NCBI RefSeq assembly: GCF_014648355.1
Contig: NZ_BMQY01000002.1
Span: forward strand, 310,001-374,000
DNA length: 64,000 nt
From: Couchioplanes azureus
GTDB lineage: Bacteria; Actinomycetota; Actinomycetes; Mycobacteriales; Micromonosporaceae
Reading direction: 5' to 3'
The notes under the pieces: model-generated
Database searches by the model: none
The model's input: the letters and a program-made list of their open reading frames with translations, nothing else
What the model was told of the DNA's origin: nothing
In this document: one piece after another, positions 17,196 to 44,507 of the stretch
Position numbering within the stretch: position 1 is the stretch's first letter
How the letters are laid out: the number at the start of each line of letters is the position of its first letter
Position numbers and translations under genes: made by a program

Positions 17196-17200
17196 GGCGT

Positions 17201-17214
17201 CCACCCTAGGGTGG
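17201..17214. promoter_or_regulatory. Shared palindromic -10 region CCACCCTAGGGTGG
   Basis: A perfect 14-bp palindrome contains TAGGGT on both strands. On the plus strand TAGGGT (17208-17213) ends 5 nt before the hydrolase ATG at 17219. On the minus strand TAGGGT ends 6 nt before the LysR GTG at 17195. One element can thus serve as the -10 box of two divergent leaderless promoters and as an operator. Confidence 0.55.
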
Positions 17215-17218
17215 TCCG

Positions 17219-18124: not shown

Positions 18125-18264
18125 TCCACGCCACGCGCGACGCGCGACGGGCCGGTCGCGAGCTGGGCTGATATCCGGACGGCTATGGCGGGTGCGGCGA
18201 CCGGATCTTGGACGCGCGGCGGGAGCCGCTGGTGTGCTGCGGGTCCCTCGACGGAAGGACCGTG

Positions 18265-19233: not shown

Positions 19234-19273
19234 TCCGTTCGCGGCATCTGCCGGAGGCCGAAGAAATCGACTC

Positions 19274-19302
19274 TTGTCAAAGTGTGACGCCGACCGTAAA
19301 CA
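19274..19302 (+). promoter_or_regulatory. Promoter candidate for the penicillin-acylase-type gene
   Basis: TTGTCA (19274-19279) and TAAACA (19297-19302) are separated by exactly 17 bp in an unusually A+T-rich gap. GGAAGGGA lies before the start codon at 19360. Confidence 0.45.
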
Positions 19303-19359
19303 GGTGGTTAGCAGTATGAATCTTTCTCGCGTCATGCGGCCCGGAAGGGACCCCCGCCC

Positions 19360-25406: not shown

Positions 25407-26642
25407 TCAGGGCACCGAGCGGATGCGGGTCACCAGCACCGAGCCCAGCACGGTCACCGCCGCCACCGACAGGAACAGCACCGGATAGCCGCCCAGGTAG
25501 GCCACGATCGGGAAGGCCACGGCCGGGCCGAGCACCTGCGGCGCGGAGTTGGCGATGTTGATGATGCCGAGATCGCGGGCGCGCTCCCGCGCGTCGGGCA
25601 GGACCTGGGTGATCAGTGCCTGGTCGACCGACAGGTAGACGCCGAAGCCCAGGCCCAGCAGGGCGGCCGCGACGACCGCCCCGGGCCACGTCGGCCAGAG
25701 GGCCAGCAGCACGGCCGCGGCCGCCATCACGTATCCGGACAGGACGACCGGCGGCTTGCGCCGCCCGGTGCGGTCCGACACCACTCCCCCGGCCACGACG
25801 GTCAGCAGCGTCCCGGCGGTGTAGACCAGTACGAGCAGGAGCAGCCCCTGCTCGGCGTCCGGGTGGCGGACCCGGTCGCGCAGGAAGTAGAGCAGGTACA
25901 GCGTCGCCATCGCGTTACCGAGCTGGACGAGGAACCGGGTGGCCCAGGCCCAGGCGAAGTCGGGGGCCTCCCCCGGGCGGAACCGGAACGCGGTCAGCAC
26001 CGACCGGGCGGTGAACCGCGGGGCGAGCTCCGCCGGGACCGGCGGGTCCCGGGTGAGCAGCACGAACGGCGCGGCGGCGAGCACCACCACGGCGCCGGTC
26101 AGCAGGTAGCCGGCGTCCACCCCGGTCACCACGGCCGTCACCAGCAGGACGCCGAGCACCACCCCGGAGGACTGGGCCAGCCCCACCCAGCCGGACACCC
26201 GGCCCCGCTGGCCCACCGGCGTCCGGTCCGGGACGATGGCGGTGATCCCGGCCTGCAGCAGGTTGAGCCCGGCCTGCGCCAGGCACCAGCACAGCGTCAG
26301 CCCGAGCAGGGTGTGCTGCCCGGAGAGCAGGACGAGCCCGGCGAGGCCGGTCAGGGCGCCGACGGCCGTCCACGTGTGCCGGCGCCCGGTCCGCGCCGTC
26401 GTCGCGTCGGAGAGCGCCCCGGCGAGCGGGCCCGCCACGACGGCGACGAGCGCGCCGACGCCGGTGACGATCCCCAGCGCGGTGGCCTTGCCGGCGCCCG
26501 CCACCTCCTCGGCCTGCTGGGGCAGCAACACCTGCAGCGGCGCGTAGTAGCCGACCCACAGGCCGAGGTTGGCCAGCGACAGCAGCGTAATCCAGCGCCC
26601 GCCCACCCGCGGCGGGGCGGCGAGGCCGGCGCGCACGGTCAC
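25407..26642 (-). CDS. MFS transporter (glycoside/sugar-type) linked to a beta-glucosidase
   Basis: The 411-residue protein has about 12 membrane helices in two halves. The MFS inter-helix motifs SDATTARTGRRHTW (after helix 2) and SDRTGRRKPP (in the second half) are both visible. It resembles the GPH/major-facilitator sugar transporters. The GTG start overlaps the stop of the GH1 beta-glucosidase gene (GTGA), so the pair is coupled. Likely role: uptake of a beta-glucoside or export of released product. No transport substrate can be read from sequence. Confidence 0.87.
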   Translation of the reverse strand: MTVRAGLAAPPRVGGRWITLLSLANLGLWVGYYAPLQVLLPQQAEEVAGAGKATALGIVTGVGALVAVVAGPLAGALSDATTARTGRRHTWTAVGALTGLAGLVLLSGQHTLLGLTLCWCLAQAGLNLLQAGITAIVPDRTPVGQRGRVSGWVGLAQSSGVVLGVLLVTAVVTGVDAGYLLTGAVVVLAAAPFVLLTRDPPVPAELAPRFTARSVLTAFRFRPGEAPDFAWAWATRFLVQLGNAMATLYLLYFLRDRVRHPDAEQGLLLLVLVYTAGTLLTVVAGGVVSDRTGRRKPPVVLSGYVMAAAAVLLALWPTWPGAVVAAALLGLGFGVYLSVDQALITQVLPDARERARDLGIINIANSAPQVLGPAVAFPIVAYLGGYPVLFLSVAAVTVLGSVLVTRIRSVP

Positions 26643-27973
26643 CGCTGCCCGGCGAGGGCGGCGCGCAGCCAGGCGAAGGAGTCCTTGGGCGTACGCCGCT
26701 GGGTGTCGTAGTCGACCCGGACGAGGCCGAACCGCTGGCTGTAGCCCTCCGCCCACTCGAAGTTGTCCAGCAGCGACCAGACGAAGTACCCCCGCACGTC
26801 GACGCCCGCGACGATCGCCTCGTGCAGGGACCGCAGGTGCGCGTCCAGGTAGTCGATGCGGGCGGCGTCGTGGACCCGGCCGTCGGCGCCGGGCACGTCC
26901 ACGGTGGAACAGCCGTTCTCGGTGACGTAGACCGGCGGCAGCACGCCGGCATACTGCTCGCGCAGGCCCACCAGCAGCTCCCGCAGGCCGTCCGGCACCA
27001 CGGGCCAGCCGAACGCCGTCCGCGGCACGCCCTCGATCTCGACGGTCTCGAACGGCAGCGGCGCGCCCTCCGGTGCCGCCCTGACCCGGGTGGGGTGGTA
27101 GTAGTTGACGCCCAGCGCGTCCATCGGCGTCGCGATGACGTCCAGGTCCCCGTCGCGGACCACGCCGGCGTCGGTGAGCCCGGCGGCGAACGGTGGATAT
27201 TCGCCGCGCAGGACCGGGTCGAGGAAGAGCCGGTTGTGGAAGCCGTCGTAGACCGCGGCGGCCACCAGGTCGTCCTCGCCGTCGCCGGCCGGCCACACCG
27301 GCGTGCAGTTGTTGGTGATCATCACCTCCGCGGCACCGCGCTCGCGCAGCGCCCGCACCGCCAGCCCGTGGGCGAGCAGCTGGTGATGGGCCACCGGCAG
27401 GGCGTCGAGCATGAGCTCGCGGCCGGGGGCGTGGGTGCCGAGCGCGTATCCCTCGGCCATGTGCACGACCGGTTCGTTGAGGGTGATCCACCGCCGGACG
27501 CGGTCGCCGAGCCGGTCGGCGACCGCGGCCGTGTAGTCGGCGAAGCGGTGCGCGGTGTCCCGGGCGAGCCACCCGCCGGCGTCCTCCAGGGCCTGCGGCA
27601 GGTCCCAGTGGAACAGCGTCGGCACCGGCGCGATGCCGCGGCCCAGCAGCGCGTCCACCAGCCGGTCGTAGAAGTCCAGACCCTGGGCGAGGGCCGGGCC
27701 CGCGCCGGTGGGCTGCACCCGCGGCCAGGCGATCGAGAACCGGTACGCCCCGACGCCCAGCGCGGCGAGCAGCTCCACGTCCTGCGCCCAGCGGTGGTAG
27801 TGGTCGCAGGCCACGTCGCCGGTGTCGCCGTCGCGGACCCGGCCCGGGGTATGGCTGAAGGTGTCCCAGATGGAGGGTCCCCGCCCGCCGTCGCGCACGG
27901 CGCCCTCGATCTGGTAGGCCGCGGTGGAGACGCCCCACAGGAAGTCCGGGGGGAATGTCGGCAGGGCAACCAC
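26639..27973 (-). CDS. GH1 beta-glucosidase
   Basis: The 444-residue protein is a full-length glycoside hydrolase family 1 enzyme. It begins with FPPDFLWGVSTAAYQIEGA, the family signature, and has RFSIAWPRVQPTG. The acid/base glutamate lies in TLNEP and the nucleophile glutamate in YVTENG. FVWSLLDNFEWAEGYSQRFGLVRVDY is the C-terminal aglycone/glucose-binding block. It hydrolyses beta-glucosides in the cytoplasm (no signal peptide). AGGAGG lies 8 nt before the GTG start. Coupled to the MFS transporter downstream. Confidence 0.94.
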   Translation of the reverse strand: MVALPTFPPDFLWGVSTAAYQIEGAVRDGGRGPSIWDTFSHTPGRVRDGDTGDVACDHYHRWAQDVELLAALGVGAYRFSIAWPRVQPTGAGPALAQGLDFYDRLVDALLGRGIAPVPTLFHWDLPQALEDAGGWLARDTAHRFADYTAAVADRLGDRVRRWITLNEPVVHMAEGYALGTHAPGRELMLDALPVAHHQLLAHGLAVRALRERGAAEVMITNNCTPVWPAGDGEDDLVAAAVYDGFHNRLFLDPVLRGEYPPFAAGLTDAGVVRDGDLDVIATPMDALGVNYYHPTRVRAAPEGAPLPFETVEIEGVPRTAFGWPVVPDGLRELLVGLREQYAGVLPPVYVTENGCSTVDVPGADGRVHDAARIDYLDAHLRSLHEAIVAGVDVRGYFVWSLLDNFEWAEGYSQRFGLVRVDYDTQRRTPKDSFAWLRAALAGQR

Positions 27974-28005
27974 GGTTCCGGCCTCCTCGAAAAGACGAGT
28001 CCGGC

Positions 28006-29496
28006 TCAGATTAGTGGGGTGACCGTCACGTCGTCGATCACCCAGTACCAGTTGTTGCTCGCGTCGTGAAAGCGGAACTTCACGGTCATCGCGCCGGCCC
28101 CGGCCGGCACCGGCACGGGCAGCGACTCGGCCGTGGCCAGGGCGTCCGCCGAGTAGCGCCGCACCAGCCGGTCGGGTCCGCCGTCGAAGGAGACGAGGAC
28201 GTCGCCCTTCTGCGCGCCCTCCTGCCGGTAGTGGGTCACGTAGTTCACCCGGACCGTGGTGCCCGCCGCGACCGGATAGGCCGGCGTCACCAGAGTCGAG
28301 TCGAAGCTCGTGCCGCCGGACCTGTCGGCGAACTCGTCGCTGTCGGCCACGGCGAAGACGCCGCGCGCCCGTACGGCGTTCTCCCGCTCCTGGCCGCCCT
28401 GCGTCCGGCTCCAGAACTCGTCGGTGGCGAAGGACCAGCCCCGCCATTCGGTGACCCCGCCGGCGGGCATCGCACCGCGGTCCACGGACCAGCCGGCCGG
28501 CGGCACCGGGGTCCAGCCGGCCAGCGTCGACGGGATGCCCGTCTCGTCCACCCGGGTCCGCAGCGCCAGGCCGTCGAAGGGATCGCCGGCGAGGGCCCGG
28601 ACGGTGCGGCCGTCCAGGGCCACGGAGACGCCGAAGTGCTGCAGCGCCGTCGCGGCCAGGTCCGCCTGCCGGACGTCCACCGGCCGGGCCCCCGCGGCGA
28701 TGCCGGGGCCCACGGCGAGCAGGAACGTGCCGCGCTCGTCGGGGCGGCAGCCGCCGTGCCCGCCGAACGGGACCCGGTGACCGTGGTCGGTGGTGACCAT
28801 GACGAGCCAGTTCTCGTCCGCGTACGTGGGCCGCGACCGCACCGCCGCCAGCATCCTGCCGAGCTGCTGATCCTGCTTCTCGATGGCGGCCCGGTAGCGC
28901 CCGCCGGTGCCCACGGCGTGCGCCACCACGTCGGTGTTGCCCAGATAGACGAACGACGCGTCCGGATCGCCGGTGCCCAGCCGGGTCACCGCGTCCGTGG
29001 TGATCTTCTCGTCCTCCCCGGCGTAGCCGTCGGCGTCCCCGTCGAGGGTGACCCGCGTGTCGATCGCCGGCGAGAAGGTGCCCTGCTCGTGCAGCGGCGC
29101 CCAGTCGACCGCGGAGTACGTCGCCAGCGCCGGGTCCGCCCGCTCCAGGCGGGTCAGGAAGTCGGGGTAGGCGTCGTACCGCTTGCCCGCGAAGCTGTTG
29201 TTGCGTACGCCGTGCCGGTCGGGCCAGACGCCGGTGGCGATGGTCGACCAGCCGGGGCCGCTGGACGAGTCGGCCAGCGACGGGCACTGCACCAGGCTGC
29301 GGCCGAGCGCGCCCTGCGCCGCGAGGGCGTCGAGGTTCGGCGCGTCCGCCGCCACGACGCTGTCCCAGTTGAGCCCGTCCATCCCCACCACCAGCAGCTT
29401 GGGGACCGGGGCACCGGCGGCCGCGGCGCCGGGGACCGCGACCGAGGCGGCGACCAGCGCCGCGGCGAGGCCGACGCGCAGCACGGAACGTTTCAT
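28006..29496 (-). CDS. Secreted type I phosphodiesterase/alkaline-phosphatase-superfamily protein
   Basis: The 496-residue protein has a Sec signal peptide (MKRSVLRVGLAAALVAASVAVPGAAAAG). The catalytic domain has VVGMDGLNWDSV, with the first metal Asp, and a nucleophile region near SSSGPGWSTIATGVWPDRHGV. TTDHGHRVPFGGHGG supplies later metal ligands. The last about 160 residues are a beta-rich domain (PAYPVAAGTTVRVNYVTHYRQEGA and onward) resembling a carbohydrate-binding or jelly-roll module. It should hydrolyse phosphomonoesters or phosphodiesters outside the cell with two zinc ions. GGAGG precedes the ATG. It sits 32 nt upstream of the glucosidase gene on the same strand. Confidence 0.85.
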   Translation of the reverse strand: MKRSVLRVGLAAALVAASVAVPGAAAAGAPVPKLLVVGMDGLNWDSVVAADAPNLDALAAQGALGRSLVQCPSLADSSSGPGWSTIATGVWPDRHGVRNNSFAGKRYDAYPDFLTRLERADPALATYSAVDWAPLHEQGTFSPAIDTRVTLDGDADGYAGEDEKITTDAVTRLGTGDPDASFVYLGNTDVVAHAVGTGGRYRAAIEKQDQQLGRMLAAVRSRPTYADENWLVMVTTDHGHRVPFGGHGGCRPDERGTFLLAVGPGIAAGARPVDVRQADLAATALQHFGVSVALDGRTVRALAGDPFDGLALRTRVDETGIPSTLAGWTPVPPAGWSVDRGAMPAGGVTEWRGWSFATDEFWSRTQGGQERENAVRARGVFAVADSDEFADRSGGTSFDSTLVTPAYPVAAGTTVRVNYVTHYRQEGAQKGDVLVSFDGGPDRLVRRYSADALATAESLPVPVPAGAGAMTVKFRFHDASNNWYWVIDDVTVTPLI

Positions 29497-30559: not shown

Positions 30560-30627
30560 CTTCGACATCCCGCGGGGGCTACCGTGGCGGCGCTGTGTGC
30601 CGGCGCCGAGACCTGCCAGGAGTGTTC

Positions 30628-33600
30628 ATGACGCTGACCGACGTGCTGCTCCGGGCCGCGACCCGCGCACCCGACCGGGGCGTGGTCCACCTCGGCGACG
30701 CCGGCGCCGAGCGGCTCGTCACCCACGCCGAACTGTACGCGGACGCGCTGCGAATCGCCGGGGGCCTGCGCCGGGCGGGGCTCGCCACCGGCGACAGCCT
30801 GCTGGTGGTGGCCGACGACAGCGCCGAGTTCCTGCCGCTGTTCTGGGGCGCGGTGCTGGCCGGCGTCGTACCCGTGCCGCTGCCGCCGGAACCGGCCCGC
30901 CTGGCCGCCGTCGCGGCGCTGCTCGGCGGCCCGCCGCTGGCCGGCGACGCCGTCCTCGCCGGCGCCCGGGTGCTGCCGGTGCCCACGCTGCGCCGCTCCG
31001 CGCCGCTCGCCGCGCCGGTCCGGGCCGCGACCGGCGATCTCGCCATGCTGCAGTTCTCCTCCGGCAGCACCGCGGCGCCGAAGGGCGTCGAGCTGACCCA
31101 CGGCAACCTGGTCGCCAACCTCGAGCAGGCGGCGCGGGCGAGCGCGCTGGACGGCGACGACGTCGTGCTGACCTGGATGCCGTACTTCCACGACATGGGG
31201 CTGATCGGCACCCACCTGGTGCCGCTGCACCGGGGCTGCCGGCAGGTGCGGATCAGCCCGCTGACGTTCGCCAAGCGACCCGAGCTCTGGCTGCGCACCG
31301 CCGCGAGACACCGGGCGACCGTGCTGTCGGCCGCCAACTTCGCCCTGGCCCTGACCGTACGGCGGGTGGCCGGCGAGACCCTCGACGGGATCGACCTGAG
31401 CAGCGTCCGGCTGATGATGGTGGGCGCCGAGCCGATCTCCCCCACGGTGTGGCGGGCGTTCGCCGACCGGATGGCGCGGGCCCGGCTCGACCCCCGCGCC
31501 CTGCGGCCGGTGTACGGGCTGGCGGAGGCCACCGTCGCCGTCGCCTTCACGCCGCCCGGCGAGCTGGCCCGGCCGTTGCGGCTGAGCCGGGCGGCGCTCG
31601 CCCGCGGGGTCGCGGTGGACGCCGGGGCCGGCACCCCGGCCGTGGAGCTGATGGATGCCGGCCACCCGGTGCCGGGCTGCCGGATCCGGATCGTCGACGA
31701 GGACGGCCGGCCGGTCGAGGACGGCCTCGTCGGCCACATCCAGGTACGCGGCCCGAACGTCACCCGCGGCTACCACCGCGACCCGGCCGCGAGCGCCGCC
31801 GCGCTGGCCGGCGGCTGGCTGCGGACCGGCGACACCGGCTTCCTGCGCGCGGGGCGGCTCTGCGTCACCGGCCGGGAGAAGGACGTGGTGTTCGTCCACG
31901 GCCGCACCTTCCACGCCGGCGACCTGGAAGAGGTGGCGGCGGCGACGCCGGGGCTCGGGGCCGGGCCGGTGGCGGTGGTCGGCGCGACCGGCGCGGTGAG
32001 CGGCCGGGAGCGGGTCGTGGTGTTCCTGGCGGCGCCGGCCGTGCGCGCGGACCCGGAGGTGGGCGCCCGGGTCCGGGCCCGGGTCGCGGAGGCGCTCGGG
32101 TACGACGGGGTCGAGGTGCGGGTGGTCCCGAACGGGGCATTCGCGCGGACCACCAGCGGCAAGCTCCGCCGCCAGGCGCTGCGCGAGCGCATCGGGGCCG
32201 ACGAGGTCGCGGCGCCGCTGCCGGCGCCGCCCGCGCCGCCCGTCGTGCCGGCCTCCGCCGCCCGGGTGCCGCGGAGCCGGGCCGACCTGGAACGGACCGT
32301 GCGCGCGGTGTGGTCCCGCGTGCTGCGCATCCCCGAGGAACGGATCGGCCCGGCCGACCGGTTCCTGGCGATCGGCGGCTCGTCGCTGGCGGCCATGGAG
32401 GTGCTCGCGGCGCTGGAGGACACGCTCGGCCGTACGCTCGACCCGGTCCTGCTGCGCGACTGTGCGACGGTGCCCGAGCTGGCCGACCGGTTGCTGGCCG
32501 ACCGGTGGCCGGCCGCCCCGGCCGGCCGGCCGGCGCCCGCCTCCCGCCCGGTGGCGGGCACCGAGCTCGCGGTCGTGGCGATGGCGTGCCGCTTCCCCGA
32601 CGCCGCCACCCCGGAGGAGTTCTGGCGCAACCTGCTGGCCGGCCGCGACAGCGTCGCCCCGGTGACCCGCTGGCCCGGCGGCGGCCACGGCGCGTTCCTC
32701 GGCGACCCGGCGCTGTTCGACGCCGGCTTTTTCGGCATCGACGACGCCGAGGCCCGCTACCTCGACCCGCACGCGCGCATCTTCCTGGAGCTGGCGTACG
32801 AGGCGCTGGAGCGCGCCGGTCTCGCCGGGCCCCGCCGCCACGACCGCCGGATCGGCGTGTTCGCGGCCGTCGGGGAGAGCGGGTACGCCGAGCTGGTGGC
32901 GGCGACCGGCACGGCCGGGCCGCACGCGATGACCGGCACGATGCGTGGCCTGCTGCCCGCGCGCGTGGCCCACCTGCTCGACCTGCGCGGCCCGGCCCTC
33001 GCGGTGGACACCGCCTGCTCGTCGGCGCTGGTCGCGCTGCACCTGGCGCACCGCAGTCTCGCGGCGGGCGACTGCGACGTGGCGGTGGTGGGCGGCGTCG
33101 GCCTGCTCCTGACACCGACCGGCGAGCGGCTGCTCGGCGGGGCGCAGGCGCTGTCGCCGACCGGGCGCTGCCGGGCGTTCGCCGCGGACGCCGACGGTTT
33201 CGTGCCCGGCGAGGGCGGCGCGGCGCTGGTGCTCACCCGGCTCGGCGACGCGGACCGCGACCGGGTGCTGGCGGTGGTGCGCGGCACGGCGGTCACCAAC
33301 GACGGCCGCTCGCTGAGTCTGATGGCACCGAACCCGCTGCGGCAGCGGGAGGTGATCGCCCAGGCATACCGGGACTGTGGTGTGGACCCGGCCGAGGTGT
33401 CCTACGTGGAGGCGCACGGGACCGGCACCGCGGTGGGCGACCCGGTCGAGGCGCAGTCGCTGGCGTACGCGTTCCCGCCGCTGCCGGACGGGCGCAAGCG
33501 GCTGCTCGGCTCGGTGAAGACCAACGTCGGGCACCTGCTGCACGCCGCCGGGCTGCCCGCCCTGGTGAAGGTGGTCCTCGCGCTGCGGCACCGGGAGCTG

Positions 33601-36600
33601 CCGCCGTCGCTGCACCACGACCGCCCGTCGCCGCGGTTCGACCTGGCCGGGGCCGGGTTCGAGGTGGTCACGTCGCGGCGGCCGTGGACCGGTCCCGCCG
33701 TCGCCGGGATCAACGGGTTCGGCTTCGGCGGCACCAACGCGCACGCGATCCTGGCCGCGCCGCCCGCGCCGCCCGCGCCGGAGCCGGCCGACGGGCCTGC
33801 GGACGCCGGGCCGCCGGTCCCCGGGCCTTGCGGCCCCGACCCGGTGGAGGGCCCCGCCGACCCGGCGCCCGCGGCCCGCGGGCCGCATCTGCTCACGCTG
33901 TCGGCCCGTTCCGCGGCCGCGCTGCGGGCGGCGGCCGGCCAGCTCGTGGAGCATCTGCGGGCCCATCCGGCGCTGCGCGAGGCGGACGTGTGCGCCACCG
34001 TCTCCACGGCCCGCGACGACGGGCCGTACCGGGTCGCGCTGGTGGCGGACGGCGACCTCGCCGAGCGCCTGGCGACCGCGGCGTACGGCCCGCCCGTGGG
34101 TCGCGCGCCCCGGGTGGCGTGGCTCTTCGGCGGGCAGGGCACCCAGCGTCCGGGCCGGGGCGCCGCACTGTACGCCGGCGCGCCCCGGTTCCGTGCGGTC
34201 CTCGACGAGGTGTCCGCGGCGGCCGGGCCGATCGCGGGCCGCACCCTGCGCGCATGGTGCACGGACCCGTCGGTGCCGGCCGGCGACCTGGCCCGCACCG
34301 AGGTCACCCAGCCGCTGGTGGTCGCGTTCGGCGTGGCGCAGGCGGCCCAGCTGCTCGCGTACGGGGTCCGGCCGGAGGCGGTCGCCGGGCACAGCGTCGG
34401 CGAGCTGGCCGCCGCGGCGACCGCCGGGATGCTCACCCCGGTGGAGGCGGTGCTGCTGGCCGCCGAACGGGGCCGGCTGACCGCGGAGCTGGCCACGCCG
34501 GGGGCGATGGTCGCGGTGGCCGCGGGCGCCGACGCGGTGGCTGCGGTGCTGGACGCCGGCGTGGTCCTCGCGGCGGACAACGGCGCCCGTCAGGTGGTGC
34601 TCGCCGGGCCGGTCGAGGCGGTCCAGGAGGCGAGCCGGCGGCTGGTCGCCCTCGGCATCGGCACCCGCCGGCTCGCGGTCTCGCACGCCTTCCACTCCCC
34701 GGCCATGGCGCCGGTCGCCGACCGGCTCGCCCGCCATGCCCCGGCCCCGCGGCCCGCGGAGATTCCGCTGCTCAGCACGGTGACGGGCGACTGGGGTGCG
34801 GCGTACGACGCGGCCTACCTGGCGGCACAGGCGGTGCGGCCGGTACGCTTCGCGGCCGCGGTGCACCGGCTGAGGGACGCCGGTTTCGACGCCTTCGTGG
34901 AGGTGGGCGCGAGCGTCGCGCTCGCGCCGCTGATCCCGGCGGCACCGGTACGCCCGGCGGGCCGCGACGCCCGTGCCCTGCTGGCGACGGCCGGAGACCT
35001 GTGGCGGCGCGGTGCCCCTCTCGACCGCACCCGGCTCGACGCCGGCACGCGACCGGTGGAGGTGCCGACGTATCCGTTCCAGCGGCGCCGTCACTGGGTC
35101 ACCGACGTGCCGCCGACGCTGGCGACCGCCCGATGGGTCGAGGCGCCCGCCACGGTCCGCGGCACCGACGCCGCCGGGGAAGACGGCAGTCCCCCGCCGG
35201 TGACGGTCGTGACGGCCGCACCCGCCGGGACCGACGACGAGGGCGCCGCCGCCGCGCGGGCGCTGGCGCGGGCGCCGCGGTCGGGACACCTGCTCGTCGT
35301 CACCGAGGACGTTCACGTCACCGGCGCCGGCCCCGAGCGGCCGAACCCCGTGCACGCCGTCTGGACGGGTCTGGCGATGGCGCTGGCGGACGAGAACCCC
35401 GGCCTCGGCGTCCGCATCGTCGACCTGTCCTCGACGGACACGCCGGCGGCCCGGCGCGACGCCGTCGCGCGGGAGTCGGCCGACCCGCCGGCGCCCGGTC
35501 CCGCGCGGATCGTCGCCTGGCGGGACGGCCGCCGGCTCGAGCGCCGGTTCACCGGCGCCGCCCCCATCACGCCGGTGGACCTGCCGAGCGACGGGCGGTA
35601 TCTGATCGTCGGCGGTGCCGGTGCGGCGGGCAGCGCGATCGCCCGGGACCTGGCCCGCCGGGGACGCCCGCACCTGCTGCTCGCGGGCCGCTCGGCGGCA
35701 CCGGCCGCGCTCCTCGGGGAGCTGCGGAAGCTCGGGGCGTCGGTGGAGTACCGCCGGGCCGACGTGGCGGTGGCGGCGGACGTGGCCGCGCTCGTCGCCG
35801 GGCACCGGTTCGACGTCGTGGTGCACGCGGCCGGGGTGGTCCGCCCGGGCAGCCTGCGGGCGGCGGCCCCGGCGGAGATCGCGGCGGATCTGGCGGCCAA
35901 GGTCCGCGGCACCCGCCTGCTCACCGAGGCCCTGCGCGGGCAGGATCCGCTCGTCGTGGCGTTGTCGTCGGTCTCGTCCGTGCTGCCCGGCCTGGCCGGC
36001 GCGCTCGGCGCCTACGTGGCCGGCAACGCCTGCCTCGACGCCTTCGCCGCGGCGCAGCGGAAGGCCGGGCGGCGATTCGTGTCGGTGAACCTGCCGGTGC
36101 TGACCGGCGGCGGCCTCGCCGCGGCCGGGGGCCTCGCCGCGGACGGCGACGGGCTGCCGCTCGACCGGCTGCCGGAGATCCTGTGGACGGCCGCCGCCGT
36201 GGGCGCACCCCAGGTGCTGGTCACCGTGCCGCACCGGCCGGGCGAGACCTCCGCCGTCGCGGCTGCGGGCAACGCGGCCGCCGGTCCGGCGCCGGGCGAC
36301 GCGGCCGGCAGCTCCGCATCGGCCCACGGCGGTGCCCCGGAGGCGGCGGGCGGGCACCGCACCACGGGGTCCGGCACCGGCTACGACGACGTCGTCGCGA
36401 TCGTGCGGGAGCTGCTGGCCGGCCCGCTGGGCACCGACGCCGCGGCGATCGGCGCCGACGAGCCGTTCCTCGCCCTCGGGCTCGACTCGCTGACCGCCGT
36501 CGACCTGGTCAAGAAGCTCGAGGCCCGGCTCGGCCGCACGCTGTCGACGACGCTGTTCTTCGAGCACCGTACGCTCGGCGAGGTCGCCCGACACCTCGCG

Positions 36601-39600
36601 GGCGCGCCGGAGTTCCCGCTCAGCCCGGTGCAGCGGGCGTTCGTCACCACCGGCCGGCTGTACCCCGGGGTACCCGCGTACGCGTCCGTGCGGCAGACCG
36701 TGACCGGGCCGGTCGACCCGGACCGGCTGGGGCGCGCCTTCGCGGAGCTGGAGCGACGCCATCCGATGCTGCGGGTACGGTTCGGCGCCGGCGGGCAGCG
36801 GTTCGCGGCACCGGGACCCGGGCGGCCCGCGTGGTTCACCGTGACCGCGCTCGCCGGGCCGGTGGAGACGCTCGACGCCGCCCTGCGCCACCGCCGGTTC
36901 GACCTGACCCGGGAGGCACCGCTCCGGGCGGTCCTGGCCGTCGCCGGTCCGGAGCTGGCGCACCTGCTCGTGGTGGCGCACCACGCCGCCGCCGACGGCT
37001 ACAGCCTGGCGATCCTCGGCGACGAGCTGTGGGCGCTCTACTCCGGACGCGAGCTGCCCGCGCCGCCCGCCACGACGTTCGCCGACCATGAGGCGTCGCG
37101 CGGCGCCCCGGCCGCGGCGGACCTGGATCACTGGCGGGAGGCGCTCGGGGCGTACCCCGGGCTGGCGCTGCCGTTCGACGGTGACGCCCGGAGCGAGCCG
37201 GAGCCGCCGTACGCCGTCCATCAGGTGACGGCCGGCCCGGCGCCGACCGCACGGCTGGGCGAGCGGGCCCGGGAGGCGGGGGTGTCGCTGTTCCATCTGC
37301 TGCTCGCCGGCTACGTGCGGTGCCTGTCCCGGTGGAGCGGCCAGTCCGCGGTGCCGGTGGCGGTCGCCCGCGCCGGGCGCACCGCGCGGCTGGCGGGGGT
37401 GGAGCGGATGGTCGGCCCGTTCGCGGACACGCTGCCGGTGCTCGCCGATGTACGGCCGGGCGAGCCGGTCCTCGCGCTCGCCCGGCGGTTGCGCGACGCC
37501 TGGCTGGACAGCGAACGGCACGGCTCGGTCTCCACCGTGGACCTCGCGCGGATGCTCGCCGCGGAGGGCGCCGGGCCGCGCACGGCGAGCCCGGCGAGTT
37601 TCAGCTTCGCCCGCTTCCCCGGCACCGGCGGCGCCGGCGGCCCCGTCGTGGCGACCGTCGCCGGCACCGCGTCGGCCGCGACCCGGCTGGGCCTGGTGTG
37701 CTTCGAGGCGCACGGCGCCCTGCACTTCTCGTGGAACTACCCGGCAGCGCTGTTCGATCAGTCCACGGTGGAGCGCCTCGCCGCCGAGCATCTGGCGGAG
37801 ATCGACGAGCTCGCCGGCGCTGCGCCGCCGACGGTGCCCGCGCCGCCGACGGTGCCCGCGCCGCCGACGGTGCCCGTCGTCGAGCGGATCCGGCGGCAGT
37901 GCCGTCGCTCGCCCGAGGCGGTCGCCGTCCGCACCGAGGGCGTGCCGCTGACCTACGGTGAGCTCGACGCGGCCTCCGACCGGCTCGCCGCCCGGCTGGC
38001 GGCCACCGGTGCCCGCCGGATCGGCCTGCTCACCGGGCCGGGCGCCGGCACGGTCGTCGGCCTCGTCGCCATCCTCAAGGCCGGTGCGGCGTGGGTGCCC
38101 CTGGACGCCTCGTACCCCACCGCCCGGCTGGCCGAGCAGCTCGCTCGCGCCGGGGTGGGCGTGGTCGTGCACGACGACAGCACCCGTACCGAGGCGGGAA
38201 CCCTGGGCGACCTCACCCTGGTCGACACGCGCGACGGCGTGGACGGCGTACCGCCTCCCGTGACCACCGGACCCGGGGACGAGGCGTACGTCATCTTCAC
38301 CTCCGGCTCGACCGGGCGGCCCAAGGGCGTCGTGGTCGGTCACCGGGCCATGGCCAACTACCTGGACTGGGCCGTGGCGGCGTTCGGGTACCGGCCCGGC
38401 GACCGGCTGGCGCAGACCGCGCCGATCTGCTTCGACGCCTCGGTGCGTCAGCTTCTGGCGCCGCTGCTGGCCGGCGCCACGGTCGTCGCCTGGGACCGGG
38501 ACACCCTCCGCGACCCCGAGGAGCTGCTGCGCCGGGTCGAACGCGACCGGATCACGGTGTGGAGCTCGGTGCCGACGCTGTGGGAGCGGCTGCTCGGGGC
38601 CGCCGAGAAGCGCGCCCGGCGTCCCGATCTCTCCGCACTGCGCTGGGTGCACGTGGGCGGCGAGGAGCTGTCCGCCGCCCACGTACGGCGCTGGTTCGAC
38701 CTGGCCGGCCCCGGCACGCGCATCGCCAACCTGTACGGCCCCACCGAGACGACGATCAACGCCACCGCGCACGTGATCGACCGGCGCCCCGGCGACGACG
38801 AGGTGCATCTGCCGATCGGCCGGCCGATCGGCGGCGCGCTGGCCGAGGTGATCGGCGCCGACGGCCGCCGCTGCCGGCCCGGCGAGGTGGGCGAGCTCCA
38901 CATCGGCGGGGCCGGGGTCGCCGCCGGATACCTCGACGACCCGGAGCAGACCGCGGCGTCGTTCGTGGACCGCGACGGACACCGGTGGTACCGCAGCGGC
39001 GACCGGGCCCACCGCGATTCCGACGGCCTGCTGTGGTTCCGGGGGCGGGTGGACGACCAGGTGAAGCTGCACGGGTACCGGGTGGAGCCGGGCGAGGTGG
39101 AGGCCGTGCTGCGCCGGCACCCGGCGGTCGACCGGTCCGCCGTACGGGTCCACGACGGGCGGCTCGTCGCCTGGGTGCAGCCGCGGGGCGACCTGCGGCC
39201 GGGCGGGGCGGAGCTGCGGACGTACCTGGAAGGGCTGGTGCCGCCGTATCTGGTGCCGGCCCGCGTCGAGGTGGTGACGGCGTTGCCGCTCACCGCCACC
39301 GGCAAGGTCGACCGGGCGCGGCTGGCGCCGGGCGCCGCGGACCGCCGGAGCGGCGCGCCACCGGTGACCGCGACCGAACGGCTGCTGGCCGAGCTCTGGT
39401 CGAGCCTGCTCGGCGTGCCGCACGTGGGGCGCGACGACGACTTCTTCGCCCTCGGCGGCGACTCGATCGGCGTCCTGGACCTGTTCGCCAGGCTGGCGGC
39501 GCACCGGCCGGCGCTCCCCCGGCCGACGGTGGTCTACCGGCACCGCACGCTGGCCGCGCTGGCGGCCGCCATCGACGCGGCGCCCGCCGATCCCGCGGCG

Positions 39601-41907
39601 CACCCCGAGCCCGCGGAGCACCCCGGGCCCGCGGCGCACCCCGAGCCCGCGGCGGGTGCCGCAGACGACGCGGAGTTTCCGCTGACCCCGGGCCAGCGCG
39701 GCTATCTGCTCGCCGACGCGGTCGGCGCCCCGTCGGCCTGGCTGGCGGCGCCGCGGCTGCACGGCCCGCTCGACCCCGACCGGTTCCAGCGGGCCGTCGA
39801 CGTGCTCGTCGCGCGGCATCCGATGCTGCGAACGGCGTTCCGCTGCGACGCACGCCCGCCGGCACAGCGCGAGCTGCCGCCGTCCTCCCGGCTGATCGTC
39901 GGCTACGACGCGGCACCGGGGCCGCTCGCCGCGGCGCTGGAGGCCGAGCGGGCCCATCGGTTCGATCCCGCGCGATGGCCGCTGGTGCGGCTGCGGCTGC
40001 TGCGCACGGGCCCGCAGGAGCACGTCCTCGTCCTGCACGCGCACCACCTGGTCGGGGACGGATACAGCGTGGCGCTGCTGGCCCGCGAGTTGCTGGCGGT
40101 CTACGACCGGGGTGCGGACGCCCTGCCGCCGCTGCGGTCGACGTTCCGCGACTACGCCGCACTGCTGCGCGGGCTCAGCGCCGTCCCCGTGGAGAACGAC
40201 GGGCACGCCTTCGGCCCGGTGGCGACGACCGGCTTCACGCTCCCCGCGGCGGTCACGGCCGGGCTGCGGCACCGGGCGGCCGCGGCCGGCGTGACCCCGT
40301 TCGTGCCGGTCCTCGCCGCGTACGCACACAGCCTCGCGATCGTGACCCGGCAGCCGGACCCGCTGGTCGGCGTGGCGGTGACCGGCCGCGACCACGCCCT
40401 GCCCGACGTGGCCCGCATCTTCGGCCCGTGCGCGACCGCGGTCGCCGTGCGTCCCGCACCGGCCGGCGCCGGAGACGACCTGCGGCGCGCGGCCGCCGCG
40501 GTGCAGGAGGCCCGGAGCCGCACCTTCACCGCGCCGCGCGGATGGCGGTTCTTCTTCACCTACCTGGACTTCGACGCACTGGGCCCGCCCCGGGGCGAGA
40601 CGCTCCGGCTGTCCTGGGAGGACACCGACGCCGACCTGGCGGTCCCGCCCGGCACCGAGACGCTGCTGGCGGTCCGCCCGGTCGACGGCGGCCTGCGGCT
40701 CACGCTGCGCGGCCGCGCCGCACCGCAGACCCTCGACCGGCTCGCCGCCGACCTCCGGTCGCGCCTCGAGCAAGCGGCCGGCGCACGGCCGCGGCACGAC
40801 CGGGCCACCCGGCTGGATGCCGCCCTCGTCGGCTACCTTCCGGCCCCCGCGCACCTCGCGGCCGTGGCGGAAGACCTGCCCGCGGAGGTACGCCGCGCGC
40901 TGCCCGCCCTGGACCGGGAGGGCATCCGGGCGGTCCTGTTCCCCGACGGCGGCCCGCGCCTGCTGGAGACCGCCGCGACGCCGCTCGGCCGGTCGGGATT
41001 CGTGTGCCTGCCCCGGTTCGCCGACGAGCTGACCGGGCCGGGCCTCGCCGCGGACGGCGCCGCCGCCGTCGACCTCGCCGCGGAGCTGGGCGCGCGCAGC
41101 GTGTCGCTGGCCGGGATGATCCCGTCCCTGACCGGGTACGGCACGGCGGTCGCACGCCGCGTACGCTCGGCGGCCCGGGTGACCAGCGGCCACGCGGTGA
41201 CCGCCGCCTCGGTGGTCCGCACGACGCTCGCCGCCGTCGCCGCCACCGGCCGCACGCTGCCCGACGGTGTGCTGGCCGTCGTGGGAGTCGGCTCCATCGG
41301 CGCCGCATCTCTGCGGCTGTTGCTGGCCCGCACCGGGCCGGCGCCGGCCGGCCTGCTGCTGTGCGACCTACCGGCCGCCGCCGGCCGGCTCACCGAGCTG
41401 GCGGCCACGATCGCGGCCGGCGGCTACGACGGTCCCGTCGACATCGTCACCGCCGGCCCGGCGGCGCCGGACCCGGTGTACCGGGCGCACGTCATCGTGG
41501 CGGCGACCAGCGGCGGTCCCGGCACCCTGGACGTCGACCGGCTGCGACCGGGCACCGTCGTGGTGGACGACTCGTTCCCGCACTGCTTCGACACCGGGCG
41601 GGCCCTGAGCCGGATGCGCGACCGGCGGGACGTGCTCGTGGTGGGCGGCGGGCTCCTGCACTGCGGCCCGGTCGACCGGACGGTCGCCGCCGGCCTGCCC
41701 GCCGCGGCCCGGCCCGGCCTGCCGGGCACGGTGGCGTCGTGCCAGCTGGAGTCGCTGCTGCACGCGACGAGACCGGGGTTGCCGCTGGTGTCCGGCCCGG
41801 TCGGCACGGCGGCGGCCGCCGCCTACTGGGACGCCCTCGACGCGGCGGGGGTCCGCGCGGCCCCGCTGCACCTGCTGGACCGCGAGGTGCCCGGGCCCAT
41901 GCCATGA
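30628..41907 (+). CDS. Hybrid FAAL-PKS-NRPS megasynthase with terminal acyl-ACP-reductase-like domain
   Basis: One uninterrupted 3,759-residue protein. FAAL, 1-525 (SSGSTAAPKG, MPYFHDMGLIG). ACP1, Ser586. KS, 646-1047 (Cys797, His930, His969). AT, 1155-1489 (GHSVG Ser1256, HAFH at 1353: malonyl-type). KR, from about 1655 (GGAGAAG, Ser1781, Tyr1796, Asn1800; a 2-residue longer loop). ACP2, Ser1954. C1, 1996-2395 (HHAAADG, His2119). A, 2428-2900 (FTSGSTGRPKG, NLYGPTETT, Lys2893). PCP, Ser2946. C2, 3017-3385 (HHLVGDG, His3140). Reductase-like end, 3396-3759. No DH, ER or TE. Inferred chemistry: a fatty acid is adenylated and loaded, extended by one malonate, reduced to beta-hydroxyacyl, condensed with one amino acid and released reductively. 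AGGAG precedes the ATG at 30628. Adenylation-pocket residues, aligned by eye, read D-A-R-S-V-V-L-I-N-K; I cannot match them to a known amino acid. Confidence 0.92.
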   Translation: MTLTDVLLRAATRAPDRGVVHLGDAGAERLVTHAELYADALRIAGGLRRAGLATGDSLLVVADDSAEFLPLFWGAVLAGVVPVPLPPEPARLAAVAALLGGPPLAGDAVLAGARVLPVPTLRRSAPLAAPVRAATGDLAMLQFSSGSTAAPKGVELTHGNLVANLEQAARASALDGDDVVLTWMPYFHDMGLIGTHLVPLHRGCRQVRISPLTFAKRPELWLRTAARHRATVLSAANFALALTVRRVAGETLDGIDLSSVRLMMVGAEPISPTVWRAFADRMARARLDPRALRPVYGLAEATVAVAFTPPGELARPLRLSRAALARGVAVDAGAGTPAVELMDAGHPVPGCRIRIVDEDGRPVEDGLVGHIQVRGPNVTRGYHRDPAASAAALAGGWLRTGDTGFLRAGRLCVTGREKDVVFVHGRTFHAGDLEEVAAATPGLGAGPVAVVGATGAVSGRERVVVFLAAPAVRADPEVGARVRARVAEALGYDGVEVRVVPNGAFARTTSGKLRRQALRERIGADEVAAPLPAPPAPPVVPASAARVPRSRADLERTVRAVWSRVLRIPEERIGPADRFLAIGGSSLAAMEVLAALEDTLGRTLDPVLLRDCATVPELADRLLADRWPAAPAGRPAPASRPVAGTELAVVAMACRFPDAATPEEFWRNLLAGRDSVAPVTRWPGGGHGAFLGDPALFDAGFFGIDDAEARYLDPHARIFLELAYEALERAGLAGPRRHDRRIGVFAAVGESGYAELVAATGTAGPHAMTGTMRGLLPARVAHLLDLRGPALAVDTACSSALVALHLAHRSLAAGDCDVAVVGGVGLLLTPTGERLLGGAQALSPTGRCRAFAADADGFVPGEGGAALVLTRLGDADRDRVLAVVRGTAVTNDGRSLSLMAPNPLRQREVIAQAYRDCGVDPAEVSYVEAHGTGTAVGDPVEAQSLAYAFPPLPDGRKRLLGSVKTNVGHLLHAAGLPALVKVVLALRHRELPPSLHHDRPSPRFDLAGAGFEVVTSRRPWTGPAVAGINGFGFGGTNAHAILAAPPAPPAPEPADGPADAGPPVPGPCGPDPVEGPADPAPAARGPHLLTLSARSAAALRAAAGQLVEHLRAHPALREADVCATVSTARDDGPYRVALVADGDLAERLATAAYGPPVGRAPRVAWLFGGQGTQRPGRGAALYAGAPRFRAVLDEVSAAAGPIAGRTLRAWCTDPSVPAGDLARTEVTQPLVVAFGVAQAAQLLAYGVRPEAVAGHSVGELAAAATAGMLTPVEAVLLAAERGRLTAELATPGAMVAVAAGADAVAAVLDAGVVLAADNGARQVVLAGPVEAVQEASRRLVALGIGTRRLAVSHAFHSPAMAPVADRLARHAPAPRPAEIPLLSTVTGDWGAAYDAAYLAAQAVRPVRFAAAVHRLRDAGFDAFVEVGASVALAPLIPAAPVRPAGRDARALLATAGDLWRRGAPLDRTRLDAGTRPVEVPTYPFQRRRHWVTDVPPTLATARWVEAPATVRGTDAAGEDGSPPPVTVVTAAPAGTDDEGAAAARALARAPRSGHLLVVTEDVHVTGAGPERPNPVHAVWTGLAMALADENPGLGVRIVDLSSTDTPAARRDAVARESADPPAPGPARIVAWRDGRRLERRFTGAAPITPVDLPSDGRYLIVGGAGAAGSAIARDLARRGRPHLLLAGRSAAPAALLGELRKLGASVEYRRADVAVAADVAALVAGHRFDVVVHAAGVVRPGSLRAAAPAEIAADLAAKVRGTRLLTEALRGQDPLVVALSSVSSVLPGLAGALGAYVAGNACLDAFAAAQRKAGRRFVSVNLPVLTGGGLAAAGGLAADGDGLPLDRLPEILWTAAAVGAPQVLVTVPHRPGETSAVAAAGNAAAGPAPGDAAGSSASAHGGAPEAAGGHRTTGSGTGYDDVVAIVRELLAGPLGTDAAAIGADEPFLALGLDSLTAVDLVKKLEARLGRTLSTTLFFEHRTLGEVARHLAGAPEFPLSPVQRAFVTTGRLYPGVPAYASVRQTVTGPVDPDRLGRAFAELERRHPMLRVRFGAGGQRFAAPGPGRPAWFTVTALAGPVETLDAALRHRRFDLTREAPLRAVLAVAGPELAHLLVVAHHAAADGYSLAILGDELWALYSGRELPAPPATTFADHEASRGAPAAADLDHWREALGAYPGLALPFDGDARSEPEPPYAVHQVTAGPAPTARLGERAREAGVSLFHLLLAGYVRCLSRWSGQSAVPVAVARAGRTARLAGVERMVGPFADTLPVLADVRPGEPVLALARRLRDAWLDSERHGSVSTVDLARMLAAEGAGPRTASPASFSFARFPGTGGAGGPVVATVAGTASAATRLGLVCFEAHGALHFSWNYPAALFDQSTVERLAAEHLAEIDELAGAAPPTVPAPPTVPAPPTVPVVERIRRQCRRSPEAVAVRTEGVPLTYGELDAASDRLAARLAATGARRIGLLTGPGAGTVVGLVAILKAGAAWVPLDASYPTARLAEQLARAGVGVVVHDDSTRTEAGTLGDLTLVDTRDGVDGVPPPVTTGPGDEAYVIFTSGSTGRPKGVVVGHRAMANYLDWAVAAFGYRPGDRLAQTAPICFDASVRQLLAPLLAGATVVAWDRDTLRDPEELLRRVERDRITVWSSVPTLWERLLGAAEKRARRPDLSALRWVHVGGEELSAAHVRRWFDLAGPGTRIANLYGPTETTINATAHVIDRRPGDDEVHLPIGRPIGGALAEVIGADGRRCRPGEVGELHIGGAGVAAGYLDDPEQTAASFVDRDGHRWYRSGDRAHRDSDGLLWFRGRVDDQVKLHGYRVEPGEVEAVLRRHPAVDRSAVRVHDGRLVAWVQPRGDLRPGGAELRTYLEGLVPPYLVPARVEVVTALPLTATGKVDRARLAPGAADRRSGAPPVTATERLLAELWSSLLGVPHVGRDDDFFALGGDSIGVLDLFARLAAHRPALPRPTVVYRHRTLAALAAAIDAAPADPAAHPEPAEHPGPAAHPEPAAGAADDAEFPLTPGQRGYLLADAVGAPSAWLAAPRLHGPLDPDRFQRAVDVLVARHPMLRTAFRCDARPPAQRELPPSSRLIVGYDAAPGPLAAALEAERAHRFDPARWPLVRLRLLRTGPQEHVLVLHAHHLVGDGYSVALLARELLAVYDRGADALPPLRSTFRDYAALLRGLSAVPVENDGHAFGPVATTGFTLPAAVTAGLRHRAAAAGVTPFVPVLAAYAHSLAIVTRQPDPLVGVAVTGRDHALPDVARIFGPCATAVAVRPAPAGAGDDLRRAAAAVQEARSRTFTAPRGWRFFFTYLDFDALGPPRGETLRLSWEDTDADLAVPPGTETLLAVRPVDGGLRLTLRGRAAPQTLDRLAADLRSRLEQAAGARPRHDRATRLDAALVGYLPAPAHLAAVAEDLPAEVRRALPALDREGIRAVLFPDGGPRLLETAATPLGRSGFVCLPRFADELTGPGLAADGAAAVDLAAELGARSVSLAGMIPSLTGYGTAVARRVRSAARVTSGHAVTAASVVRTTLAAVAATGRTLPDGVLAVVGVGSIGAASLRLLLARTGPAPAGLLLCDLPAAAGRLTELAATIAAGGYDGPVDIVTAGPAAPDPVYRAHVIVAATSGGPGTLDVDRLRPGTVVVDDSFPHCFDTGRALSRMRDRRDVLVVGGGLLHCGPVDRTVAAGLPAAARPGLPGTVASCQLESLLHATRPGLPLVSGPVGTAAAAAYWDALDAAGVRAAPLHLLDREVPGPMP
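37822..37875 (+). repeat. Three perfect 18-bp repeats in the C1-A linker
   Basis: GCGCCGCCGACGGTGCCC occurs three times in tandem, encoding (APPTVP)x3 between the first condensation and the adenylation domain. It is a flexible interdomain linker. Confidence 0.85.
39598..39651 (+). repeat. Three near-perfect 18-bp repeats in the PCP-C2 linker
   Basis: Three 18-bp units of the form GCGCACCCCGAGCCCGCG encode (A/E)HP(E/G)PA repeats between the PCP and the second condensation domain. Confidence 0.8.
40816..41904 (+). other. Terminal AAR-like acyl-ACP reductase domain of the megasynthase
   Basis: Residues 3396-3759 align by eye along their length with cyanobacterial acyl-ACP reductase (AAR). ALVGYLPAPAHL corresponds to AAR's opening GLIGHLTSLEQA. 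SLAGMIPSLTGYG corresponds to ALGGFTSI, and VTSGHAVTAASVV to FTTGNTHTAYVI. The Rossmann loop is VVGVGSIG (Gly3553, Gly3555, Gly3558) and VLVVGGGLLHC matches YVLNGGVVEHC. Cys3705 in VASCQLESLL matches the catalytic Cys294 in MFACFAEAML. AAR forms a thioester on that Cys from acyl-ACP and reduces it with NADPH to the aldehyde. The same reaction on a peptidyl carrier protein is inferred, not shown. Confidence 0.72.
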
Positions 41908-41914
41908 TCTTCCG

Positions 41915-42577
41915 GTGCGCGCCGTCCTGTTCGACCTCGATGACACGCTGATCGACCAGCAGACCGCCGCCCGTGAGGCGGTCGTCGCGTGGGCCGCGGA
42001 GCTCGGTGTCACCGATCCGGACGTCCCCCGGCGCTGGGCACACCTCTCCGAACGGCACCTGGCCCGCTATCAGCGCCGTGAGCTGACCTTCGACGAGCAG
42101 CGCCGCGAGCGGGTCCGCGACTTCCTGCCCGGGCCGCTGACCGACCGGGAAGCGGACGCGCTCTTCGCGGGTTACCTCACGCGCTACGAGGCCGGCTGGA
42201 CGGCGTTCGAGGACGCGGTTCCCACGCTCCGGCGGGCCCGTGCCGCCGGGTTGCCGGTCGCCATCCTCACCAACGGCGACGAGACCCAGCAACGCCGCAA
42301 ACTGGAGCGGCTGTCCCTCAGCGCCGAGATCGACCTGCTGGTGGCGTCCTCGATGGTGGCCGCGGGAAAACCGGACCCGCGCGCCTTCCAGCACGCGGTC
42401 GCGCTCCTGGGTCTCCGCGGTGCCGACGTCCTGATGGTCGGCGACTCCCTGGAGAAGGACGTGCTCGCCGCACGGGCCGCCGGTCTGGAGGCGGTCCTCG
42501 TGGACCGCGCGGACGCCCACCCCGACGCCGGCGTGCCCCGCGTGCGTTCCCTCCACGACCTGGCCTTCGTCCGCTGA
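41915..42577 (+). CDS. HAD-superfamily hydrolase, coupled to the megasynthase
   Basis: The 220-residue protein is a HAD phosphatase with a helical cap. Motif I is FDLDDTLID at the N-terminus, motif II is ILTNGD, the motif III lysine is in AAGKPDPRAF, and motif IV is VGDSLEKDV. It would dephosphorylate a small metabolite in the cytoplasm. Its GTG start lies only 7 nt after the megasynthase stop, so the two are almost certainly one operon. It may tailor the product or a precursor, or remove a toxic by-product; the substrate is unknown. Confidence 0.88.
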   Translation: MRAVLFDLDDTLIDQQTAAREAVVAWAAELGVTDPDVPRRWAHLSERHLARYQRRELTFDEQRRERVRDFLPGPLTDREADALFAGYLTRYEAGWTAFEDAVPTLRRARAAGLPVAILTNGDETQQRRKLERLSLSAEIDLLVASSMVAAGKPDPRAFQHAVALLGLRGADVLMVGDSLEKDVLAARAAGLEAVLVDRADAHPDAGVPRVRSLHDLAFVR

Positions 42578-43745: not shown

Positions 43746-44507
43746 TCAAGCGGTGCGGCGGTTCTGCGGGACGGCGAGCTGGTCGCGGATCACCGTCAGG
43801 ACGGCCGGGGCGTGGTCGAGCAGGAAGAAGTGCCCGCCGGGGAAGACCCGGACGGCGAAGGGCTCCTGCGAGTGCCGCTCCCAGTCGCGGGCTTCCTCGA
43901 TCGTCGTGTGCGGATCGCGGTCGCCGGTCAGGACGGTGACCGGACACGGCGGCGGGCCGCCCGGCTTCCAGCGGTAGGTCTGGACGGCGCGGTAGTCGCT
44001 GCGCAGCGCGGGAAGGATCATCTCGAGGATGCCCGGCTCGTCGAGCAGCGCCGCGTCGGTGCCGCCGAGCCTGCGCAGCTCGGCGATGATGCCGGCGTCG
44101 TCGCGCGGCGGCGCGCTGTCGGGACGCAGCCGGTGCGGGGCGCGCCGTCCGGAAGCGAACAGATGCAGCGGCAGCCCCGGGTTGTCGCGCCGCAGCCGCC
44201 GGGCCACCTCGTACGCGACGATCGCCCCCATGCTGTGCCCGAAGAGCGCCAGGGGCCGGGGATCCCATCCCGCCATGGCGGAGTGCAGCCGGTCGGCCAG
44301 CACGGCGATGTCGTCGAGGCACGGTTCGCCGTGGCGGTCGTGGCGGCCGGGGTACTGCACGGCGTACACGTCGATGCCGGGGGCGAGGGCGCGGGACATG
44401 GGCGCGAAGAAGCTCGCCGCGCCGCCGGCGTGCGGGAAACAGACGAGCCGGGGTGCCGCGGGCTCCGCGGGCCGGAACCGCCGGAACCAGATGCTGTCGT
44501 CCGTCAT
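43746..44507 (-). CDS. Type II thioesterase (external editing TE for PKS/NRPS)
   Basis: The 253-residue alpha/beta hydrolase has the TEII pattern: LVCFPHAGGAASFFAPM at the start, YPGRHDR, the nucleophile in FGHSMGAIVAYEVARRL, and the catalytic His in FPGGHFFL near the end. These enzymes remove stalled or wrong acyl groups from carrier proteins of PKS and NRPS lines. The natural partner here is the megasynthase 1.8 kb away on the other strand. The gene begins 6 nt after the guanine deaminase stop, so it appears to be the last gene of the purine operon. Confidence 0.9.
   Translation of the reverse strand: MTDDSIWFRRFRPAEPAAPRLVCFPHAGGAASFFAPMSRALAPGIDVYAVQYPGRHDRHGEPCLDDIAVLADRLHSAMAGWDPRPLALFGHSMGAIVAYEVARRLRRDNPGLPLHLFASGRRAPHRLRPDSAPPRDDAGIIAELRRLGGTDAALLDEPGILEMILPALRSDYRAVQTYRWKPGGPPPCPVTVLTGDRDPHTTIEEARDWERHSQEPFAVRVFPGGHFFLLDHAPAVLTVIRDQLAVPQNRRTA

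Follow-up and report, generated by a model that had tools for sequence, protein, structure and literature searches.

We analysed a stretch of 64,000 nucleotides (the window) from the Couchioplanes azureus contig NZ_BMQY01000002.1 (positions 310001-374000; G+C content of 75%), part of a 7.6 Mb genome with kinship to Actinoplanes. It carries a megasynthase gene that ends in a release domain. This domain is best filed as a member of the acyl-ACP reductase (AAR) fold that resembles TAD, the AAR-fold domain of the carmabin nonribosomal peptide synthetase (NRPS), and it likely releases the finished chain as an amide, with an aldehyde ranked second. The Pfam order of the megasynthase is AMP-binding (fatty acyl-AMP ligase, FAAL), phosphopantetheine-binding (PP), ketosynthase (KS), acyltransferase (AT), ketoreductase (KR), PP, condensation (C), adenylation (A), PP and C, and the FAAL and A calls are also borne out by solved-structure searches. 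A protein search yielded 381 megasynthase-length proteins (E<=0.001) among 1745 scored candidates. Counts out of 121 refer to an alignment of the best 120 of these, the nearest ones, plus the window. Ser597, Ser2957, His3533, Asp3591 and Cys3716 are counted from the GTG at 30595; Cys3716 is Cys3705 in the ATG count of an earlier note on this sequence. The features are as follows.

30628..41907, + strand: megasynthase coding sequence, 3759 aa from the ATG, in a frame that is already open at GTG 30595
30631..32193, + strand: FAAL loading domain; best solved matches include FAALs and FadD AMP ligases
32383..32385, + strand: phosphopantetheine Ser597 of the first acyl carrier protein domain, ACP1 (Ser in 120/121, gap in 1)
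32566..33618, + strand: ketosynthase, catalytic Cys808/His941/His980 (each 120/121, gap in 1)
34120..34908, + strand: acyltransferase (active-site Ser in 108/121)
35593..36102, + strand: ketoreductase (Tyr in 121/121)
36403..36597, + strand: ACP2 (Ser in 121/121)
36610..37794, + strand: condensation domain C1 (HHxxxDG in 121/121)
37891..39306, + strand: adenylation domain, code DARSHGLIN in 105/121 and DARSHGLVN in 16/121
39463..39465, + strand: phosphopantetheine Ser2957 of the peptidyl carrier protein (PCP) domain (Ser in 121/121)
39673..40776, + strand: condensation domain C2, between PCP and release domain, HHLVGDG intact
40756..41904, + strand: TAD-like, AAR-fold terminal release domain, from sequence and fold comparison
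41182..41193, + strand: TSGH motif with His3533, which is also His in TAD, whereas AAR and PigE have Asn
41284..41301, + strand: nucleotide-binding loop GVGSIG, from the alignment
41365..41367, + strand: Asp3591, the NAD(H)-type acidic residue that ends the second Rossmann strand (121/121)
41566..41589, + strand: DDSFPHCF motif; TAD counterpart DDSGPHCF
41740..41742, + strand: Cys3716 (= Cys3705), counterpart of TAD Cys2238

The composition of the C-terminus agrees with the earlier note, which had seen an AAR-like domain there instead of a thioesterase or a short-chain dehydrogenase/reductase (SDR) type R domain. The Pfam search gave no PF00975 thioesterase at the C-terminus of the megasynthase and no SDR/NAD-binding reductase in the terminal domain. 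The last ~380 residues matched no Pfam family (DUF5983 at 0.23 aside), and the PHROGs search returned no match. Among NCBIfam models, PigE matched part of the domain (5.3e-11; 41.6 bits, with the cut-off at 850), and SbnB left a trace (0.0075). Fold comparison with AAR structures revealed the AAR fold over the full length of the domain. Its nearest solved relative, by both sequence and fold, is the TAD of the carmabin NRPS (PDB 9e4s, 9e4u, 9e4x, 9e50 and 9e56); a later profile included TAD itself, so its score for TAD is circular and was left unused.

Membership of the AAR family proper was not supported. TIGR04058, the NCBI model of AAR (cut-off 449.7), had no match at the megasynthase locus at E<=1, was not among the NCBIfam matches of the release domain at E<=0.1, and gave 12 weak matches elsewhere in the genome, the best at 15.4 bits; of its 14 control genomes, 12 had any match (Synechococcus elongatus included) and 1 exceeded the cut-off. 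The PigE model, run across 198 genomes, matched only within the transaminase half, never above its cut-off, and is uninformative on the release domain. Meanwhile, the marker residues (TTGH, which is TSGH in the window, DDSxPHC and the acidic residue of the NAD site) side with TAD and not with AAR or PigE. MAFFT misplaced AAR at column 204, where HMMER alignments were used instead.

The position of the catalytic Cys was reached through TAD, since alignments to AAR stop short of its Cys294. In the alignment, residue 3716 falls on residue 334 of the TAD chain that was crystallised. The aligned stretch contains seven Cys, of which residue 334 alone fits both the number 2238 and an end near 2296. 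The title of PDB 9e56 names a disulfide from Cys2238 to dephospho-CoA, indicating that this Cys sits at the arrival point of the phosphopantetheine arm. The Cys of PigE (Cys296) is reported to overlay Cys294 of AAR (PMC8341465). Cys3705 is likely equivalent to AAR Cys294, as the earlier note had aligned it, and it occurs in 121/121 near relatives. The Rossmann loop that the note had read was also found throughout, as GxGSIG in 121/121. Collectively, the AAR fold, the loop, the conserved acyl-acceptor Cys and the lack of a thioesterase or SDR match suggest that the domain probably works through an enzyme-Cys thioester.

The PCP Ser, the HHxxxDG motifs of C1 and C2, the release-domain Cys, GxGSIG, Asp3591, DDSFPH and GGGLL were conserved in 121/121 sequences, while TTGH occurred in 117/121, TSGH in 4/121, and a Cys directly after DDSFPH in 117/121. 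The dN/dS of the release domain was 0.39 and 0.30 against two relatives, those of four compared that gave a plus-strand alignment. These values, together with the invariance of the Cys, loop, Asp, His and GGGLL, argue against the release domain being an inactive or structural remnant whose chain leaves by hydrolysis or by way of a nearby type II thioesterase. A thioesterase gene does lie at 43746-44507, but among the regions examined it is otherwise found beside the megasynthase only in the closest relative, and we regard this explanation as very improbable.

We propose, with moderate confidence, that this domain of the carmabin TAD type frees the chain as a C-terminal amide by means of Cys3705 and ammonia. 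The FAAL would activate a fatty acid, which one malonyl extension and reduction by the KR would turn into a 3-hydroxyacyl chain. One amino acid would then be added, as specified by the adenylation code DARSHGLIN. We read this nine-letter code by hand, at the positions defined for GrsA. The Arg at position 239 hints at a substrate with an acidic side chain; the nearest solved A domain is that of LgrA, which does not decide the substrate. The finished lipo-aminoacyl chain would move from the carrier protein to Cys3705 as a thioester, and attack by ammonia would release it as a C-terminal amide; we infer the acyl transfer, the amide product and the role of ammonia as nucleophile. An amide is preferred to an aldehyde because the cyanobacterial pathway of TAD, the closest relative with a solved structure, makes an amide-ended product, carmabin A being described with a C-terminal amide (PMC6164609, PMC10949194). 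The sequence markers, in favouring TAD, lean to the same side. The terminal domains of HcaD and VatR have been proposed to amidate by ammonolysis in a paper that describes their enzymology as unstudied (PMC10949194).

Several observations weigh against amide release. The identity between the release domain and TAD is only ~28%. Column 297 holds Gly in 121/121 family members and Glu in TAD and in a Pantoea homologue, and the third position after the Cys holds Glu in 120/121 (Asp in 1), where TAD and the Pantoea homologue have Ser. A distant relative (P0197) lacks the whole Cys stretch. C2 stands between the PCP and the release domain, which is not the case in HcaD and VatR. The two changed columns and the position of C2 are the reasons why we withhold higher confidence. 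Moreover, 'terminal amidation domain' is our own probable reading of the abbreviation TAD. Finally, GxGSIG and Asp3591 are invariant, and simple ammonolysis requires no dinucleotide, so the NAD site speaks for hydride chemistry. Its presence in 121/121 near relatives makes it likely that the domain requires a bound dinucleotide, which might serve to hold the active site or to transfer hydride transiently.

Such a site would be expected if release were reductive, as the earlier note proposed, with the chain on Cys3705 taking hydride from NADH to leave as a lipo-aminoacyl aldehyde in the manner of AAR, PigE and TamH. The AAR fold agrees with this, and AAR-like domains of TamH (PMC9594044) and PigE (PMC8341465) are described as turning natural-product thioesters into aldehydes, as is predicted for KecF (PMC6498172); for PigE, aldehyde formation is reported in cell lysate and not with the purified protein (PMC8341465). 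Nevertheless, the marker residues follow TAD, TIGR04058 is unmatched at the locus, and no fused transaminase or conserved downstream partner that would use an aldehyde was seen, unlike in PigE and TamH. We rank reductive release second, with rather low confidence. Of the earlier proposal, the fold, the loop, the Cys and the probable Cys-thioester chemistry stand, while AAR identity, novelty (the carmabin TAD structures were already in the PDB) and the aldehyde as natural expectation are not supported.

A redox-neutral route would account for an invariant NAD site in an amide-type release domain. NADH would reduce the Cys-bound acyl group to a bound aldehyde, ammonia would add to it, and the same NAD+ would re-oxidise the carbinolamine to a primary amide. 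We consider this hydride borrowing unlikely; if true, it would make the AAR fold an amide former that works without ATP or glutamine, with the upstream C2 passing the chain on.

The role of C2 bears on what reaches the release domain. It models as a complete C domain and therefore probably works, on a putative acceptor, although the didomain model has a pTM of 0.54 and the packing of the two domains is uncertain. C2 might make or modify the last bond, either through condensation with another aminoacyl unit or with an amine, or through a dehydration like that of AmbE-CmodAA, leaving the TAD-like domain to release or cap the product. This joint action would fit the invariant HHxxxDG of C2, the single frame that it shares with the release domain in 76/80 loci, and a model that matches complete C domains (best single-domain match 7r9x, AmbE-CmodAA, E 5.2e-23, almost tied with ordinary C domains). 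In contrast, the sequence of C2 is nearer to ordinary C domains (PvdL, TycC, Txo2) than to 7r9x, and the Pfam domain list of the megasynthase has neither a second A domain nor a PCP that follows C2; we judge joint action quite improbable. A dehydrating (modAA) identity for C2 was rejected, since the margin of 7r9x is meaningless and the sequence favours ordinary C domains.

The family is widespread. The best relative, Couchioplanes caeruleus by source name, has 86% identity over the release domain. When 296 genomes of the class were examined, a match of any strength was seen in 21 and a strong one (E<1e-40) in 9, the window's own included; 8 of the strong matches lay in frames of 3.8-4.5 thousand residues and 1 in a 402-residue frame. 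Within the genus, 24 of 67 genomes carry the gene, again counting the window's own. The second protein search brought up 81 proteins of domain size, and many of these are incomplete entries for synthases of this kind. Scanning named genomes yielded 167 pattern stretches and 148 relatives, of which 80 were kept; one scan pattern was VDDSFPHC, and this motif is no independent evidence there. The loci outside the 76 with a single stop-free frame for C2 and release domain were L022, L056, L062 and L078. For L022, L056 and L078, no single open frame was recovered that holds both domains (L078 has one stop), through either sequence errors or decayed copies. At the AT active-site column (34120-34908), 13/121 relatives have something other than Ser; some of these might depend on a trans-acting AT, or the alignment might be locally wrong.

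Two stand-alone homologues were found on plasmids. Pantoea stewartii plasmid pCN101 (L127:11704-12993) encodes a 429-residue TAD homologue, annotated as hypothetical and 44% identical to the carmabin TAD, in a row with genes for a KS protein, a MupA-type monooxygenase and two adenylation-domain proteins, and possibly a trans-acting version. A linear plasmid of Streptomyces sp. NBC_00470 (L128:11476-12672) encodes a divergent 398-residue homologue, with ACP and ketosynthase genes downstream of it. No NRPS gene is annotated within ~12 kb on either side, and this is perhaps a type II system with the same release chemistry.

Upstream of the megasynthase and divergent from it lie genes for a pyridoxal phosphate (PLP) enzyme of the D-cysteine-desulfhydrase/ACC-deaminase kind (below cut-offs), a phosphodiesterase, a GH1 enzyme and an MFS protein. 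Downstream are genes for a HAD hydrolase, an ECF sigma factor, a DUF1232 protein, a type II thioesterase, an amidohydrolase and xanthine dehydrogenase, two of which are placed as follows.

41915..42577, + strand: HAD-type hydrolase directly downstream; in the regions examined, only the closest relative has a homologue next to the megasynthase gene, and the hydrolase is probably not part of the system
43746-44507, - strand: type II thioesterase-like gene (PF00975, 5.6e-54)

When open reading frames (ORFs) were compared, the HAD, ECF sigma and thioesterase genes that lie downstream in the window had homologues in 0/80 loci. This comparison covered downstream neighbours only, as the upstream flanks are intragenic; some of the loci stop shortly after the gene, and ORFs below 82% GC3 were excluded. 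The largest downstream ORF group covered 13/73 loci, and some groups were antisense shadow ORFs. In separately fetched regions (13 upstream and 7 downstream), neighbour homologues were confined to the closest relative, G317 (L107, L120), except for a xanthine-dehydrogenase homologue in L117. An ABC-transporter ATPase gene, identified by eye, recurs in 6/13 upstream regions. On a Streptomyces fungicidicus plasmid, the gene sits amid unrelated genes. In the regions examined, we saw no conserved partner gene that would consume an aldehyde or provide ammonia. With so few neighbours shared in these regions, the system looks like a one-gene pathway, and a guess of the product from the gene cluster was rejected.

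The GH1 and phosphodiesterase genes adjoin in the window (26639-28006), unlike in the closest relative, where ~5.4 kb with an ABC-transporter ATPase gene, called by eye, separates their homologues (L107:6714-12077). Elsewhere in the window (16233-22518), a class A beta-lactamase-type gene (PF13354), a divergent LysR regulator, a metallo-beta-lactamase-fold gene and a penicillin-amidase-type gene stand in a row, the last with a C-terminal F5/8 discoidin domain.

Besides the Glu to Gly and Ser to Glu changes, the release domain differs from the carmabin TAD in being preceded by a C domain, in an actinobacterial one-gene megasynthase. Our searches of the open-licence PMC literature found no description of a widespread actinobacterial lipopeptide synthase, encoded by one gene, with this PCP-C-TAD order. 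In HcaD (hectoramide B) and VatR (vatiamides), the 'amidotransferase' domains are likewise NRPS-terminal and not thioesterases (434 residues in HcaD); they resemble the window domain in size and place, but are described as directly following the PCP (PMC10949194). Cyanobacterial AAR (PDB 6jzy/6jzu) shares the fold over ~320 residues and the Rossmann site, and its Cys-thioester mechanism is known from the literature; unlike the window domain, it is stand-alone, has 19% identity, carries Asn for the His of TTGH, and lacks both DDS-PHC and an acidic residue ending strand 2. PigE, TamH and KecF also use an AAR-like domain on natural-product thioesters, but fused to a PLP transaminase, which was absent from the 15 domain families listed for the megasynthase. 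PigE is without the TAD markers, and TamH and KecF are likened here by their published descriptions. The SDR-type R domains of NRPSs are functional analogues in NAD(P)H-type terminal release, with another fold and mechanism.

For this widespread actinobacterial megasynthase, the product to be expected shifts from a lipopeptide aldehyde to a likely lipopeptide amide. Since a single adenylation code, DARSHGL[IV]N, was present in the 121 sequences examined, one compound class should cover many strains; our searches of open-licence PMC papers turned up no account of such a class. Together, AAR, PigE, TAD and the window family, in which one acidic residue close to the motifs is gone and a different one has appeared, form a comparative set for the switch between hydride and ammonia in the acyl-ACP reductase fold.

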